DNA of 17,832 nucleotides, from assembly GCA_001412365.1 (NCBI GenBank), contig LKUE01000225.1:1-17832 (forward strand), in the 5' to 3' direction. Position 1 is the first letter of the stretch. Each line of letters begins with the position of its first letter. Positions 289 through 17,615 of the stretch are shown here, piece by piece. The DNA comes from Desulfuromonas sp. SDB. Its GTDB lineage: Bacteria; SDB-A. Below the pieces are notes generated by a model. It ran no database searches, was not told the DNA's origin, and worked only from the letters and a program-made list of their open reading frames with translations. Position numbers and translations under genes: made by a program.

Positions 289-1596
289 TTAGAAGGCTCG
301 ATAAACTTCTCCTGAGAGTTTTGGATTGGAAAGAATAGACCGGATGACATCCACTGGAAATTTATTGTCTTTTTCCCATAGGAAAAAGACATCATCAATT
401 TGATAACTGTAAATGGGTACAGCTGCCAGTAGATTATCATCCATGTATAAAAGCAGTAATTTTCCGGGATTTGATGAAAATTTTGTATTTAATCTTTCTG
501 ACATTTCTGAACTTAAACCTAATTTTAAACCGATCCTTCCTGCAGGATCTGTATTAACCAATACCTCATCAATATCGGATTTGTCAATATATATTCTGTC
601 ATTTAAGGATATAACTAATCTATAGGGTATATCCCCAATAGTGTCCATAGTACTATTAACACCGTAAATCGAATCCATAATTTCAGGATTATCAATTAAC
701 AACTGGGGTGAGGTATCCGGCCATGCGCCAAGGTCAAACGAAAAAGAACCGGTACAAGTAACAAAACTCAAAAAGTCTGCAGGATCAACAGCACTGAGAA
801 ATGAAAGATTGATATTTCTGCCTGAAGAAGAAAACTCAACATTATCCATTCCCAGTTTTTCCATTCTCTTTCTGATAATGGCGGTATCTGAAATGTCGGT
901 AAAATTTAAACTATATTGATATTGGACAGCACGGGGGGATATTATCTTCTCTGAACTGGAGTAATCCAGGACTTTAAAATTCCAAAAAAGAGATGAATCG
1001 GGGGAATAAACTGATATTTCAGAAAGTAAACTATCCTGCTGACGTATAGTTACAAATCCGGTGGTCTGAATTACACTCAATGGATCTAACAGTGGAATAT
1101 TCGGTTGAAAAGCAAAAACAATCATATTATCATCGGTTAAACCGACAAAACGAAACTGCTGTTTTAAAAATATTAATTCCAGTTGAAAATCCAGATCAGA
1201 TAATTCACTCCGGGGATATTCCTCCCAATGATTCCCCACCCGGTGAAATTCACTAGACCCGTTTGCAATTATCTGCTGTTGCGCATCATAAGATCTTCCA
1301 ATCAATTTCAGTTTATCCGGAAAATTGTAAAAAAGATCGTATTTAACAGATAAATCCTGATAAGGTTCAATATCATTTCTGACAATTTCCCATTGAGATG
1401 AAAAGGAACCTAAGTTTAAAAGATTTGAAACAGCTATATCTATTAATTCCGATGTATACGGTGCTTCTTCCTGAACAATAACTAAATTTTGATTAGCTCC
1501 GCAGGAATATAGCAGACAGGAAATTATTATCCCTAACCAAATTAAGTTAAATCTAGTTTCGAGAAACGATGTGGCATTAAATCGGATAAACGACAT
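289..1596 (-). CDS. Lipoprotein with LolA-like N-terminal half and SecD periplasmic-head-like C-terminal half
   Basis: The 435 aa protein begins with a signal peptide: hydrophobic residues about 18-30, then LLYSC with the lipidation cysteine at 32. It is therefore a predicted lipoprotein. Residues about 50-225 read as a beta-rich LolA/LppX-like fold (inference, no sharp motif). Residues about 225-435 resemble the soluble P1 head of SecD. IIRKRMEKLGM (240-250) matches the SecD pattern of an Arg-rich helix followed by LG and a hydrophobic beta strand. Residues 337-395 match the SecD stretch with a DI...V...D..G pattern, then an NPGKLLLLYMDDNLLAAVPI segment like the SecD GKxLAIxLDxxxxSAPxI segment. 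SecD transmembrane helices are absent. The ATG at 1596 is the only standard start; GGAG lies 10 nt upstream. The first 18 codons overlap the end of the upstream gene in another frame. It is third in a minus-strand operon. Function is unknown; a role in envelope lipid or protein traffic is only suggested. Confidence 0.7.
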   Translation of the reverse strand: MSFIRFNATSFLETRFNLIWLGIIISCLLYSCGANQNLVIVQEEAPYTSELIDIAVSNLLNLGSFSSQWEIVRNDIEPYQDLSVKYDLFYNFPDKLKLIGRSYDAQQQIIANGSSEFHRVGNHWEEYPRSELSDLDFQLELIFLKQQFRFVGLTDDNMIVFAFQPNIPLLDPLSVIQTTGFVTIRQQDSLLSEISVYSPDSSLFWNFKVLDYSSSEKIISPRAVQYQYSLNFTDISDTAIIRKRMEKLGMDNVEFSSSGRNINLSFLSAVDPADFLSFVTCTGSFSFDLGAWPDTSPQLLIDNPEIMDSIYGVNSTMDTIGDIPYRLVISLNDRIYIDKSDIDEVLVNTDPAGRIGLKLGLSSEMSERLNTKFSSNPGKLLLLYMDDNLLAAVPIYSYQIDDVFFLWEKDNKFPVDVIRSILSNPKLSGEVYRAF

Positions 1597-2750
1597 CTTT
1601 TTTCATCTCCATTATTGTTTAAGATTAGTATTTCCGCTTCATCCGCAAATTCAGCGATTACCTGTAAACAAGCTCCGCAGGGATATACACCGGAGTTTGA
1701 AGCAATAACCATTTTTTTTATTTTTCTTCCCTTATCCTCGACCATGCTGAAGATTGCTGAACGTTCTGCGCACATTGTAAGTCCATAGGATGAATTCTCC
1801 ACATTACATCCCCCATAAATAAACCCCCGGTCATCCATTACCGCAGCACCAACCGGAAAATTAGAATAAGGGGTATACGCATTGGATTTCGCCTTGACTG
1901 CCATTTTCTTTAAATCTTCCCAATCATGTGAAGATTTGACCACCCATTCCAATTTATAAATATCTTCCCGGCGATCTTTTATCCGGTCATTATTTGTTCC
2001 GATAGTTTTTTTATCAGCCTGAGCAGGATCAAACTCAACTTCTAAAATTGATTCATCATCATTCAATGCGCCCAGTAATTCCCCCTGGGGGGAAACCACC
2101 TGAGTGCCCCCGGTAAAGGTCAATTCATCCAATCCTTCTCTTTCCCGACCGATTCGATTAGCAGTGGCGATAAATAATCCATTGGTCAGTGCTCTGGCAA
2201 TCATAGATCTCTGACACCAAGGTAAAACTAAATTAGCGGAATGCAAAACTACCTGCACCCCTTGCAGGGAAAGTAATCTGAATAACTCCTGAAAAACCCA
2301 GTCAAAACAAATCAACAGTGACAGTTTATAAGTACGGAATGAAAAAACAGGAGGTTTTTGACTGCCCGGTGTAAATATTTTCTTTTCTCTGCCGAATAAA
2401 TGCAGTTTGCGGTAAACCTCTACTATTCCATTTTTATCTACAGCTAAAACAGAATTAAACAAGCTAACCTTGCCCTCTTGTTCAGAAACTTCAGGAAGTC
2501 CAACTACAATTAATGAATCCCGAAAAGATGCTAAATCCTGAAAATATTTTACAATTTCCTGGTTTTGGGTAAGTTTATCAGCTAAGGGCAATAATGATTC
2601 CGTATTGGGATAAGCATAACCGGTGGTAGCTAATTCAGGCAATAATATGATATCACCCTGGGATTTTTTACAAAATTCTTCAATTTTTTTCAAATTGCCG
2701 GATTTATTTGATATTTCCGGAGCAAATTGAATCAGGGATAGTTTTACCAT
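1542..2750 (-). CDS. Fusion of a nitrilase-family amidohydrolase with a cytidine deaminase
   Basis: The 402 aa cytoplasmic protein has two enzymes in one chain. Residues 1-265 are a carbon-nitrogen hydrolase (nitrilase superfamily) with the full Glu-Lys-Cys triad: E39 in LLPELA, K115 in YRKLHLFG and C148 in ICFDW. After a short linker, residues about 275-402 are a homotetrameric-type cytidine deaminase. Its ribose-binding N316/E318 lie in GGCNVENSSYG, the catalytic E329 in MCAERSA, and the zinc ligands are C327, C358 and C361 (PCGAC). The length of about 130 aa matches stand-alone Cdd. Both halves appear active. The deaminase converts cytidine or deoxycytidine to uridine and ammonia; the nitrilase substrate cannot be read from sequence (beta-ureidopropionase, omega-amidase or another amide are candidates). 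The start overlaps the stop of the upstream gene by 7 nt with no clear Shine-Dalgarno, so translation is probably coupled. Both functional assignments at domain level are firm; the joint role is not. Confidence 0.9.
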   Translation of the reverse strand: MVKLSLIQFAPEISNKSGNLKKIEEFCKKSQGDIILLPELATTGYAYPNTESLLPLADKLTQNQEIVKYFQDLASFRDSLIVVGLPEVSEQEGKVSLFNSVLAVDKNGIVEVYRKLHLFGREKKIFTPGSQKPPVFSFRTYKLSLLICFDWVFQELFRLLSLQGVQVVLHSANLVLPWCQRSMIARALTNGLFIATANRIGREREGLDELTFTGGTQVVSPQGELLGALNDDESILEVEFDPAQADKKTIGTNNDRIKDRREDIYKLEWVVKSSHDWEDLKKMAVKAKSNAYTPYSNFPVGAAVMDDRGFIYGGCNVENSSYGLTMCAERSAIFSMVEDKGRKIKKMVIASNSGVYPCGACLQVIAEFADEAEILILNNNGDEKRCRLSDLMPHRFSKLDLT

Positions 2751-3148
2751 CTAATCTGATTGCTCTGATTAGTTTCAATTTTAACTGCAGGGGCTTGAAA
2801 TCCGACGGTAATAGTCATTTTGGGATTTATCTGATAAGTAACAATACCTGAAGATAACAGGTAATTTGTCCCCCATGAATTGAGATCACTAACCAAAGAA
2901 AGATTTACATCCATAATCAGATTTTGATAAGGATGATATCTGCCGGTAGTCCCCAACCAGGAAAAACTTGAACCGGATGAAGAGAAATAGCATCCCATGG
3001 AGTGATTGAACTGAAGATTTTGATAACACTGATTTAAACTATCCAAGCCAGGTAACCGGGTTGAAGAAATAAAATAAGGTTGATTAAACTGGGCAGCCAA
3101 GTTCAACGGCAATGCCAATACTATCAATAATAATATATAAAATTTCAT
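2744..3148 (-). CDS. Small exported protein, probably beta-rich outer-membrane associated
   Basis: This 134 aa protein starts with a clear signal peptide: K2, a hydrophobic run of about residues 4-18, and a likely cleavage after the Ala pair in NLAAQF. The mature part has alternating hydrophobic and polar residues, many Ser, Gly and aromatic residues (CYFSSSGSSFSWLG) and no further helix. It resembles short porin-like proteins with an SSG-rich strand that I associate with Cloacimonadota-like and related phyla, but I cannot name a family. The ATG at 3148 is preceded by a near-perfect AAGGAGG with good spacing. It is first in the minus-strand operon with the nitrilase-deaminase fusion and the lipoprotein, overlapping the former by 7 nt. 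Confidence 0.75.
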   Translation of the reverse strand: MKFYILLLIVLALPLNLAAQFNQPYFISSTRLPGLDSLNQCYQNLQFNHSMGCYFSSSGSSFSWLGTTGRYHPYQNLIMDVNLSLVSDLNSWGTNYLLSSGIVTYQINPKMTITVGFQAPAVKIETNQSNQIRW

Positions 3149-3172: not shown

Positions 3173-3201
3173 ATTTTATTTTCTTTATGGTGATAAGTCA
3201 A
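3173..3201 (-). promoter_or_regulatory. Probable sigma70-type promoter of the minus-strand operon
   Basis: On the minus strand TTGACT (3201-3196) is followed after 17 bases by TAAAAT (3178-3173). Both hexamers are close to consensus. Predicted transcription start is near 3166, giving a leader of about 18 nt that contains the AAGGAGG of the first gene. Confidence 0.6.
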
Positions 3202-3208
3202 ATTGGTA

Positions 3209-3255
3209 AATTGTTGCAATTCAACTTTTTATTTATGGGTATATTGATATATAAT
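3209..3255 (+). promoter_or_regulatory. Possible butyrate kinase promoter with adjacent short inverted repeat
   Basis: A perfect TATAAT occurs at 3250-3255, about 45 nt upstream of the butyrate kinase start. No good -35 hexamer lies at the right distance; the best is TTTTTA at 3226-3231 with an 18-base spacer. A small inverted repeat, AATTG-TTG-CAATT, at 3209-3221 lies between this and the divergent minus-strand promoter and could be a regulator site, though it is short. Confidence 0.35.
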
Positions 3256-3300
3256 AGCTGTATTTTAACATTGTTTTATCCAAATGAGATTGGAGGTACT

Positions 3301-4368
3301 ATGTTTAAAATTTTAGCAATCAATCCAGGAGCTACTTCCACCAAAATTGGTATTTATGAAAATGAAAATCCGGTCCGGGTGGATATTATACGTCATGAAG
3401 GTTCGGAGCTGGCTAGATATCAAAAATCAGTTGATCAATATAAATACAGAAAGGAAATTATTGAAGATTCTCTTAAACTGCACAATTTTGATCTCAGCAG
3501 TTTTTCCGCAGTGGTGGGCAGAGGGGGTACATTTAAGCCCCTGCCAGGCGGAGTGTATGAAGTAAATCAGGCAATGATTGATGATGTGCTGGAGGGCAAA
3601 GTTCAAGCAGAACATGTATCTTTAATAGGATGCCTGCTGGCTAAACAGCTGGCTGATCAATACGGGATTCCCTCGTTTGTAGTTGACCCTGTATCTGTAG
3701 ATGAATTTACTGACACTGCCAAGATATCCGGTTTACCTGAATTACCCAGGAAAAGCTTATCTCATGCCCTGAATATAAAGATGGTGGCCAGGAAGTATGC
3801 TTCTTCCCAAGGAAAAAAAATACAGGAATTTAATTTGGTAATAGCTCATCTGGGAGGAGGGATCAGCATTGTACCTATGAACAGAGGAAAAATTATTGAT
3901 GCAAATAATGCCAATGACGGCGGTCCCATGTCTCCTCAGAGAAGCGGATATCTTCCAGTTACCGGTTTAATTAAATTATGCTACAGTGAAAAATATTCCC
4001 AGCCGGAAATGATTACCAAGGTCATTAAAAAGGGAGGATTAACTGCTCACTGCGGCACTGACGATCTCAGGGAAATTATCACCAGAATTGAGCAGGGAGA
4101 CCAAAAGGCTGATTTAATATTCAGGGCAATGGTTTATCAAATTGCCAAAGAAATTGGAGCAATGAGTGCGGTGCTGAAGGGGAATGTTGATGCAATAATT
4201 ATAACCGGAGGCATGGCTCATCAGCATCAACTCACCGATGCTCTTAGTGAATTTATATCCTGGATTGCTCCTATTGAGGTTTTTCCAGGTGAAGATGAAC
4301 TGGAAGCTTTAGTTAGAGGAACTTTACTGGTATTGAGAAAGGAGATTGAACCTGCAGTTTACCAATAA
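3301..4368 (+). CDS. buk: Butyrate kinase family acyl kinase
   Basis: The 355 aa cytoplasmic enzyme belongs to the acetate/butyrate kinase (ASKHA) fold and should interconvert butyryl phosphate plus ADP with butyrate plus ATP, the last energy-yielding step of butyrate or branched-chain acid fermentation. Visible motifs are the N-terminal phosphate loop LAINPGATSTK (residues 5-15), VVGRGG (about 72-77), DPVSVDEF, RKSLSHALN, VIAHLGGGISI and NDGGPMSPQRSG. The length equals that of classical Buk. An in-frame ATG exists at 3187, but the ATG at 3301 is preferred: it has GGAGG five nucleotides upstream and begins the conserved domain immediately. No phosphotransbutyrylase gene is in the window. Branched-chain or other short acyl phosphates are possible substrates. 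It heads a plus-strand operon with a membrane protein and two ABC genes. Confidence 0.92.
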   Translation: MFKILAINPGATSTKIGIYENENPVRVDIIRHEGSELARYQKSVDQYKYRKEIIEDSLKLHNFDLSSFSAVVGRGGTFKPLPGGVYEVNQAMIDDVLEGKVQAEHVSLIGCLLAKQLADQYGIPSFVVDPVSVDEFTDTAKISGLPELPRKSLSHALNIKMVARKYASSQGKKIQEFNLVIAHLGGGISIVPMNRGKIIDANNANDGGPMSPQRSGYLPVTGLIKLCYSEKYSQPEMITKVIKKGGLTAHCGTDDLREIITRIEQGDQKADLIFRAMVYQIAKEIGAMSAVLKGNVDAIIITGGMAHQHQLTDALSEFISWIAPIEVFPGEDELEALVRGTLLVLRKEIEPAVYQ

Positions 4369-16259: not shown

Positions 16260-17615
16260 TTATTTTTCTTCATCAAAAAACTGGGCTAGTGCATCTCTTC
16301 TGGTATAAGCTACTTTAGCACAAGCTTTACTTATATCCTTAATCACTTTGTCATCTATAATCTCAACAAATTTCCTATAGCTTAAATTATGATTGAATAA
16401 GTCCACCGCATATTGGTAATATTTCTCCACATTGGCTTTACCTAATGTCTGATAGACATAAGATGATATTGGTGAATTCTTAATATCAAAAAATGTGTCC
16501 TGATTTCTACCTTTCTCCAATAAATTTTGAACTTGAGGATTGTTCTCCTGCCTGGCTTGTTTAACTGAAGGGAGAAAATCTTTAGCTTTGTACTGATGGG
16601 GATTACCTGTATTTAAATCACCTAAAAACATATTGATAGGAGCATCTCCGCCTGAAAGCATTGCCAGAGACTCAATTATGGCTAATGTTAAAAGTTTTAC
16701 CCTTAAATAATCCTTGGCTATTTCAATGTTAATTCGAGCTTGGTTACTCATTTTATTATAATCCCGGTCATCAGGATAACTGTGATACTGATGAAAAATA
16801 TTTCGATAGTCCAGATTTGCCAGGAATGTCTCCATCTTTTTTAAAGCTTTCCGGTAGCTTTTAACTGAATAAAGTTTGGTTTTTAACAATATTGCATTTG
16901 ATTCAGGCAATAAGGACCAGGTGTTGTCAAGAAATTTGCCGGTATCGGAAAAAGCAAAGTTTTCAACATCCCGGTTAGCTAGTTGAACTGCTTTTAAAAT
17001 AGTCTTTTCAATACTTTCTGAACTAAAACCAAGGTCATATTTTTCATTTAGGTTAATTAAGCGCTCTTCCAATAAATCAAAACTGGATTTTCCATTTTTA
17101 TCTTTAGAACGGAAGGGAATTGTTCCTTCTATGCAGGCGGCAATTTCAGCTAAATACTTCAGAGAAAGGAATTTACTTAAATTTTTAACAGCAATTACCG
17201 CACTGAGAAATTCATTTAAACCATTGTTCAGTTGAATCTGCTGTCCCGGACTTAAATTAAATACATCACAGCACAGCTTAAATGACAGTTCATCCGGAGG
17301 ATTACTTCTAATTCTAAATTTCCTTTGCTCAATTTGGAGGAATGATTTTAAAAATTCTGTATGGGGAGGCAAACCCCCGTCAATCTGGTAATAAACCACG
17401 TCATGATATAATCCTGCTAGAATCTGAATAGGATCATCAGAGTCACAAACTAAAAATACATGCCTAGTTGTATGAAATATTCTCTTACCGTTTTCCATGG
17501 AACGATAAATAAAAACAGCAATATTTTCAATGTCTATTAGGGGTACATTAACTTCCAGAGATTTAAAAGATTTCAATAAAAGGTCTATTAAATTATTGAT
17601 TATTGGTTCAGTCAT
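16260..17615 (-). CDS. HD-domain metal-dependent phosphohydrolase-like protein of unknown function
   Basis: The 451 aa protein has an HD-like motif near its N terminus: H48 and H52 in FHTTRHVF, then H71-D72 in LAGLYHDVVYY. A later Asp, in ANRDVENF, could complete the metal site. This suggests a phosphohydrolase acting on a nucleotide or other phosphorylated compound, but the substrate is unknown. The remaining 230 residues are helical, with a SGGDAPINMFLGDLN stretch at about 323-337 and no motif I recognise. There is no signal peptide or membrane helix. ATG 17615 lies seven bases after the stop of a small membrane protein gene with only weak AAAG upstream, so coupling is likely. A seven-base inverted repeat (17616-17622 and 17627-17633) spans this junction and could affect initiation. 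Confidence 0.7.
   Translation of the reverse strand: MTEPIINNLIDLLLKSFKSLEVNVPLIDIENIAVFIYRSMENGKRIFHTTRHVFLVCDSDDPIQILAGLYHDVVYYQIDGGLPPHTEFLKSFLQIEQRKFRIRSNPPDELSFKLCCDVFNLSPGQQIQLNNGLNEFLSAVIAVKNLSKFLSLKYLAEIAACIEGTIPFRSKDKNGKSSFDLLEERLINLNEKYDLGFSSESIEKTILKAVQLANRDVENFAFSDTGKFLDNTWSLLPESNAILLKTKLYSVKSYRKALKKMETFLANLDYRNIFHQYHSYPDDRDYNKMSNQARINIEIAKDYLRVKLLTLAIIESLAMLSGGDAPINMFLGDLNTGNPHQYKAKDFLPSVKQARQENNPQVQNLLEKGRNQDTFFDIKNSPISSYVYQTLGKANVEKYYQYAVDLFNHNLSYRKFVEIIDDKVIKDISKACAKVAYTRRDALAQFFDEEK

Follow-up and report, generated by a model that had tools for sequence, protein, structure and literature searches.

The question raised by this locus is why a nitrilase-superfamily amidase and a cytidine deaminase should be joined in one polypeptide, and in particular whether the two reactions belong to a single pathway, as was suggested in the initial annotation, which proposed that the fusion may link the first and last steps of pyrimidine salvage or catabolism. 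The window, i.e. the whole stretch of 17,832 nt that was analysed, comes from a genome assembly of 3.14 Mb in 433 contigs. It carries a 402-aa open reading frame on the minus strand at 1542-2750, where the plus-strand frame is full of stops, and this frame is divided as follows:

1542..2750, minus strand: fusion gene, nitrilase-superfamily amidase plus cytidine deaminase, 402 aa (open reading frame, Pfam, NCBIfam, conservation in three further genomes, G001-G003)
1953..2750, minus strand: amidase half, residues 1-266, with E39, K115, E122 and C148 (CN_hydrolase, PaNit match, PH0642 fold match)
1932..1952, minus strand: linker, about residues 267-273 (pLDDT dip, junction identities)
1545..1931, minus strand: cytidine deaminase half, residues 274-402, with N316, E318, C327, E329, C358, C361 and F396 (TIGR01354, CDA structures)

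The Pfam family CN_hydrolase (PF00795) covers residues 4-245 (E 2.3e-35, 122.6 bits vs a curated cut-off of 23.2) and dCMP_cyt_deam_1 covers residues 278-370 (E 1.9e-18, above its curated cut-off), the two halves being separated by about 7-10 residues. An AlphaFold model of the fusion has two confident domains (mean pLDDT 94.6, pTM 0.76), with pLDDT falling to 72 at residues 271-280, and the linker region is poorly conserved among the fusion proteins, residues 267-279 showing 15-38% identity to the window protein. The complete catalytic sets claimed for both halves, E39, K115 and C148 in the amidase and C327, E329, C358 and C361 in the deaminase, lie exactly where they had been placed, and beyond these the amidase half has E122, the second glutamate of nitrilases, while N316 and E318 in the deaminase half are substrate residues of CDA.

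The description as a one-chain fusion is borne out by the reading frame, by both Pfam domains and by the presence of the full-length protein in three of the three relatives examined in the same family, all of another genus (g2) and 48-53% identical to the window protein. E39, K115, E122, C148, C327, E329, C358 and C361 are invariant in all four fusion proteins. In separate trees of each half the four fusion rows form one clade, and the branching order is the same in both, the source genome (G000) lying outside G001, which lies outside G002 plus G003. Both halves are under purifying selection, dN/dS being 0.07-0.17 in each in the comparisons with unsaturated synonymous sites, most pairwise dS values being saturated. 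The shared clades and branching order, the low dN/dS and a gene order that is kept in the family point to one old fusion that has been vertically inherited. An assembly error, which the initial annotation had asked to be checked by looking for separate genes in close relatives, is ruled out because the full-length fusion is present in four independent genomes, which likewise argues against chance; the invariant catalytic residues together with low dN/dS exclude a decayed fusion, in agreement with the original view.

Outside the family the arrangement was sought in 638 of the genomes G000 to G641, which were gathered as 60 relatives, 245 genomes of the G056 phylum, 386 relatives and 17 genomes of the G006 phylum. 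No full-length fusion was found among these 638, each match being to the amidase only or to the deaminase only, so that the arrangement is indeed uncommon, as had been supposed, and within the genome set covered only one family, small and deeply separate from other bacteria, has this architecture. The amidase of G006 is sister to the amidase half of the fusion. Long CDA reading frames in the GC-rich genomes L030 and L024 were set aside as not being fusions, their N-terminal parts resembling out-of-frame translation. A contig scan with six exact peptide patterns, which says little, gave a nitrilase of 27% identity as its sole match. Horizontal spread via plasmids or phages is unsupported: no place in the plasmid and phage collections covers 80% of the fusion query, and IMG/VR gave partial nitrilases only, with no full-length match. 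Two of the fusion proteins compared with known anti-phage defence systems have no PADLOC match at E 0.001. A literature search, with most subscription journals outside it, found no description of this architecture, which thus appears to be undescribed in the sources searched, both halves being of known kinds.

The deaminase half gives 134 bits to the tetrameric cytidine deaminase model TIGR01354 (cut-off 113.65), aligned over model positions 2-125 of 126, and matches the Enterococcus and Bacillus CDA structures at 4e-27 and 3e-25. It carries the CAE and PCxxC motifs, with zinc ligands C327, C358 and C361 and catalytic E329, and as in Cdd of B. subtilis (1jtk) and E. faecalis (8x6u) the Asn/Glu pair and the C-terminal Phe are kept as well. 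By score and by residues, as read from the sequence, this half is a canonical Cdd, unlike the free-standing Cdd proteins of about 130 aa in being the C-terminal domain of a longer chain. A Cdd-like 131-aa paralogue in the source genome reaches 59.6 bits against the TIGR01354 cut-off of 113.65, the remaining PF00383 genes in the family lie well away from Cdd, and the whole fusion used as query returned no further deaminase match better than 1e-6 in the four genomes; the fusion is therefore the only canonical-looking Cdd gene seen in them. A departure is seen in the YSxF motif, whose active-site aromatic at residue 298 (window 1857-1859) is F in the window protein and F or Y in all 12 free-standing CDAs sampled. 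The three genus-g2 fusions lack the usual F/Y and have I, V and I, a hint that deaminase specificity may have shifted in that genus.

The amidase half is closest among solved structures to the archaeal enzymes PaNit of Pyrococcus abyssi (4.5e-46) and PH0642 of P. horikoshii (4.9e-45), followed by a Nesterenkonia amidase (1e-22), N-carbamoylputrescine amidohydrolase (2e-14) and mouse Nit2 (1.8e-10), with Drosophila beta-ureidopropionase near the bottom of the list at 7.1e-4. It shares with PH0642 and PaNit (1j31, 6ypa, 3ivz) 36-38% identity over the whole amidase domain, the Glu-Lys-Glu-Cys set, the ICFDW motif and the fold (Z 39). The fold-comparison list for the fusion model contains nitrilases only, since the amidase domain fills it, and within this one superfamily PH0642 leads (Z 39.4, rmsd 1.3 over 257 residues), ahead of 6ypa (Z 39.2, rmsd 1.3), mouse Nit2 (Z 34.2) and two beta-ureidopropionases (31.8 and 31.5). 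PH0642 and PaNit are single-domain enzymes, unlike the fusion, and although the PaNit model NF040852 is the best NCBIfam match of this half, its 173 bits fall well below the equivalog cut-off of 500, so that PaNit specificity cannot be transferred. The P. abyssi enzyme has been described as highly specific for aliphatic dinitriles (PMC8280356), and 2-oxoglutaramate is removed by omega-amidases of the nitrilase superfamily (PMC6302742). The title of structure 6ypa describes the PH0642 amidase in complex with glutaramide; together with the omega-amidase background it makes a small omega-amide a candidate substrate of the amidase half, though this is a guess, if a reasonable one, drawn from one liganded structure title and general knowledge.

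The genes about the fusion are kept in the family in the order divergent butyrate kinase, exported protein of 131-134 aa, fusion, and predicted lipoprotein of 430-435 aa. The neighbours, in the window and in genus g2, are:

2744..3148, minus strand: 134-aa exported protein gene, directly upstream of the fusion, no Pfam family
289..1596, minus strand: 435-aa predicted lipoprotein gene, directly downstream of the fusion, no Pfam family over cut-off
3187-4368, plus strand: butyrate kinase ORF, matched by the family model from residue 39 onward
16260-17615, minus strand: 451-aa protein lacking a Pfam match over cut-off, with HD-like N-terminal motifs by eye (HTTRHVF, GLYHDVVY)
L036 8518-12594 and 12734-13774 (also in L037 and L038): peptidase C25 protein and PorV-like protein, the latter by eye

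In each of the four genomes the exported-protein gene runs 7 nt into the start of the fusion. At the other end the lipoprotein gene begins within the fusion gene in another frame, with GGAG about 10 nt before its ATG, and overlaps the fusion 3' end by 55 nt in the window and by 58 nt in each of the three relatives; that an overlap in different frames is conserved suggests that the two genes are translationally coupled. By eye the lipoprotein resembles, in its C-terminal part, the periplasmic domain of SecD, its model being poor (pLDDT 51.7). The position at which the butyrate kinase model begins, together with the 355-aa proteins in G002 and G003, indicates that the true start of that gene is probably downstream of 3187. 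Onward on the same strand in genus g2 there follow a peptidase C25 (gingipain-type) protein of ~1360 aa (PF01364, 1.3e-64) whose C-terminal domain is FlgD-like, the PorV-like gene and then TruB- and RibF-like genes, so that in this genus an exporter neighbourhood adjoins a cytosolic fusion enzyme.

These observations are best accounted for, in what we judge to be the probable though by no means settled reading, by a conventional Cdd and an independent small-amide hydrolase carried in one chain and kept for co-expression or co-assembly. The anatomy of the chain, its conservation, its relatives and the lack of a second Cdd above the curated cut-off are observed, and we infer the activities of both halves, their substrates, their oligomeric state and the reason for the fusion as follows. 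The two-enzyme chain would be stable and inherited vertically. Its C-terminal half would act as an ordinary zinc cytidine deaminase converting (deoxy)cytidine to (deoxy)uridine in salvage, presumably as the sole canonical Cdd of the family, and its N-terminal half would be a Glu-Lys-Glu-Cys thiol amidase of the PaNit/PH0642 type acting on a small aliphatic amide, for which a dicarboxylate omega-amide, e.g. 2-oxoglutaramate or glutaramide, is a plausible candidate. The two active sites would use different substrates and would not carry out consecutive steps. Ammonia is released by both the Cdd and the amidase reactions, so that neither feeds the other, which argues against channelling. Enzymes of the nitrilase family, like those of the CDA family, are obligate oligomers, and retention of the fusion may reflect nitrilase dimers joined to a CDA tetramer. 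What links the halves is thus probably co-expression or co-assembly, and not a pathway of two steps.

Precedents for such a chain exist in NitFhit (C. elegans, 1ems) and glutamine-dependent NAD synthetase, in which a nitrilase-superfamily domain also stands N-terminal to an enzyme of nucleotide metabolism; 1ems and 5kha are among the solved relatives matched by the amidase half. The present fusion has a different partner and a different nitrilase branch, and unlike the NAD synthetase amidase, which feeds ammonia to its partner, it is joined to a Cdd, which gives off ammonia and has no need of it.

Successive steps are often joined in fusions, and a dedicated two-step enzyme for one nitrogen-rich compound has to be weighed, in which the same chain would strip a cytosine nucleoside that bears a small amide as well, so as to detoxify or scavenge a modified nucleoside or a nucleoside antibiotic. 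The change of F298 to I/V in genus g2 could suit an altered nucleoside, and the amidase is not explained by any constant pathway neighbour. Nevertheless, orthologues of the amidase half are found as single-domain proteins in many phyla with no adjoining Cdd, none having been seen beside them in the neighbourhoods read, which indicates that the amidase serves a general function independently; the Cdd half moreover resembles a housekeeping Cdd and the PaNit-type amidase is related to small-amide enzymes, so that this explanation is unlikely. Equally improbable in our estimation is a structural passenger, in which one half serves only as a scaffold, the amidase for the deaminase tetramer or vice versa. 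The oligomeric habit of both families, as general knowledge, and the short linker would suit it, but no catalytic residue of either half varies across proteins of only 48-53% identity, and dN/dS is low in both halves. A further possibility that we regard as doubtful to about the same degree is a true two-step or cross-regulated enzyme, in which both halves would have one nitrogen-rich nucleoside, or one ammonia signal, in common; if true, this would be an undescribed reaction of nucleoside scavenging or detoxification in the family.

Less probable than these is pyrimidine catabolism, in which the fusion would join cytidine deamination as the first step to N-carbamoyl-beta-alanine hydrolysis as the last. 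Both enzyme families are right for it in broad outline, and the structure group of PaNit bears the molecule name 'Beta ureidopropionase' alongside 'Nitrilase', a name that on some PaNit PDB entries looks like annotation. The proposed link is nevertheless not supported by the identity of the amidase half, whose nearest relatives are PaNit (~1e-46) and PH0642, beta-ureidopropionase (Drosophila 2vhh, ~7e-4; 8pt4) being among the weakest solved relatives although of the same superfamily fold (Z 31 to 32); the tree of this half contains no beta-ureidopropionase row. Nor do the partner enzymes support it: in the four fusion genomes neither dihydropyrimidinase (TIGR02033) nor the PreA subunit of dihydropyrimidine dehydrogenase (NF006183) is found above cut-off, and pyrimidine-nucleoside phosphorylase (TIGR02644) has no match. 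The best hydantoinase-like gene, in G000:C412, scores 250 bits against the dihydropyrimidinase cut-off of 393 and matches allantoinase best (331.8 bits, below the cut-off of 357.85). Its locus (L057, 4761-16466) holds xanthine-dehydrogenase-like subunits (by eye), the allantoinase-like protein, SsnA-like and YgeY proteins, a DHOD-like protein with a ferredoxin domain, a carbamoyltransferase and a threonine-synthase-like protein, and has the look of a cluster for anaerobic purine degradation. A salvage role, from cytidine via uridine to UMP, suits the data better than a catabolic one. A uridine-kinase domain in a 550-aa protein of all four genomes (~90 bits, below the TIGR00235 cut-off) is a possible next step after uridine, and thymidine kinase matches are marginal, in frames of 359-373 aa.

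As improbable is a polyamine route, with an N-carbamoylputrescine amidase fused to Cdd by chance: the amidase half does match TIGR03381, but at 92.4 bits against a cut-off of 410.25, another nitrilase of G000 matches that model better (115 bits), and agmatine deiminase family members occur in only two of the four fusion genomes, so that such a role is not constant.

Nothing found thus connects the pair to pyrimidine breakdown; both halves look conventional, and the present evidence reveals no new reaction or pathway. What the locus adds is one more domain pairing among the few nitrilase fusions, and a functional hint of the Rosetta Stone kind for a widespread, physiologically uncharacterised bacterial amidase. 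As the fusion seemingly supplies the only canonical Cdd of its family, the role of the chain should be easy to test.
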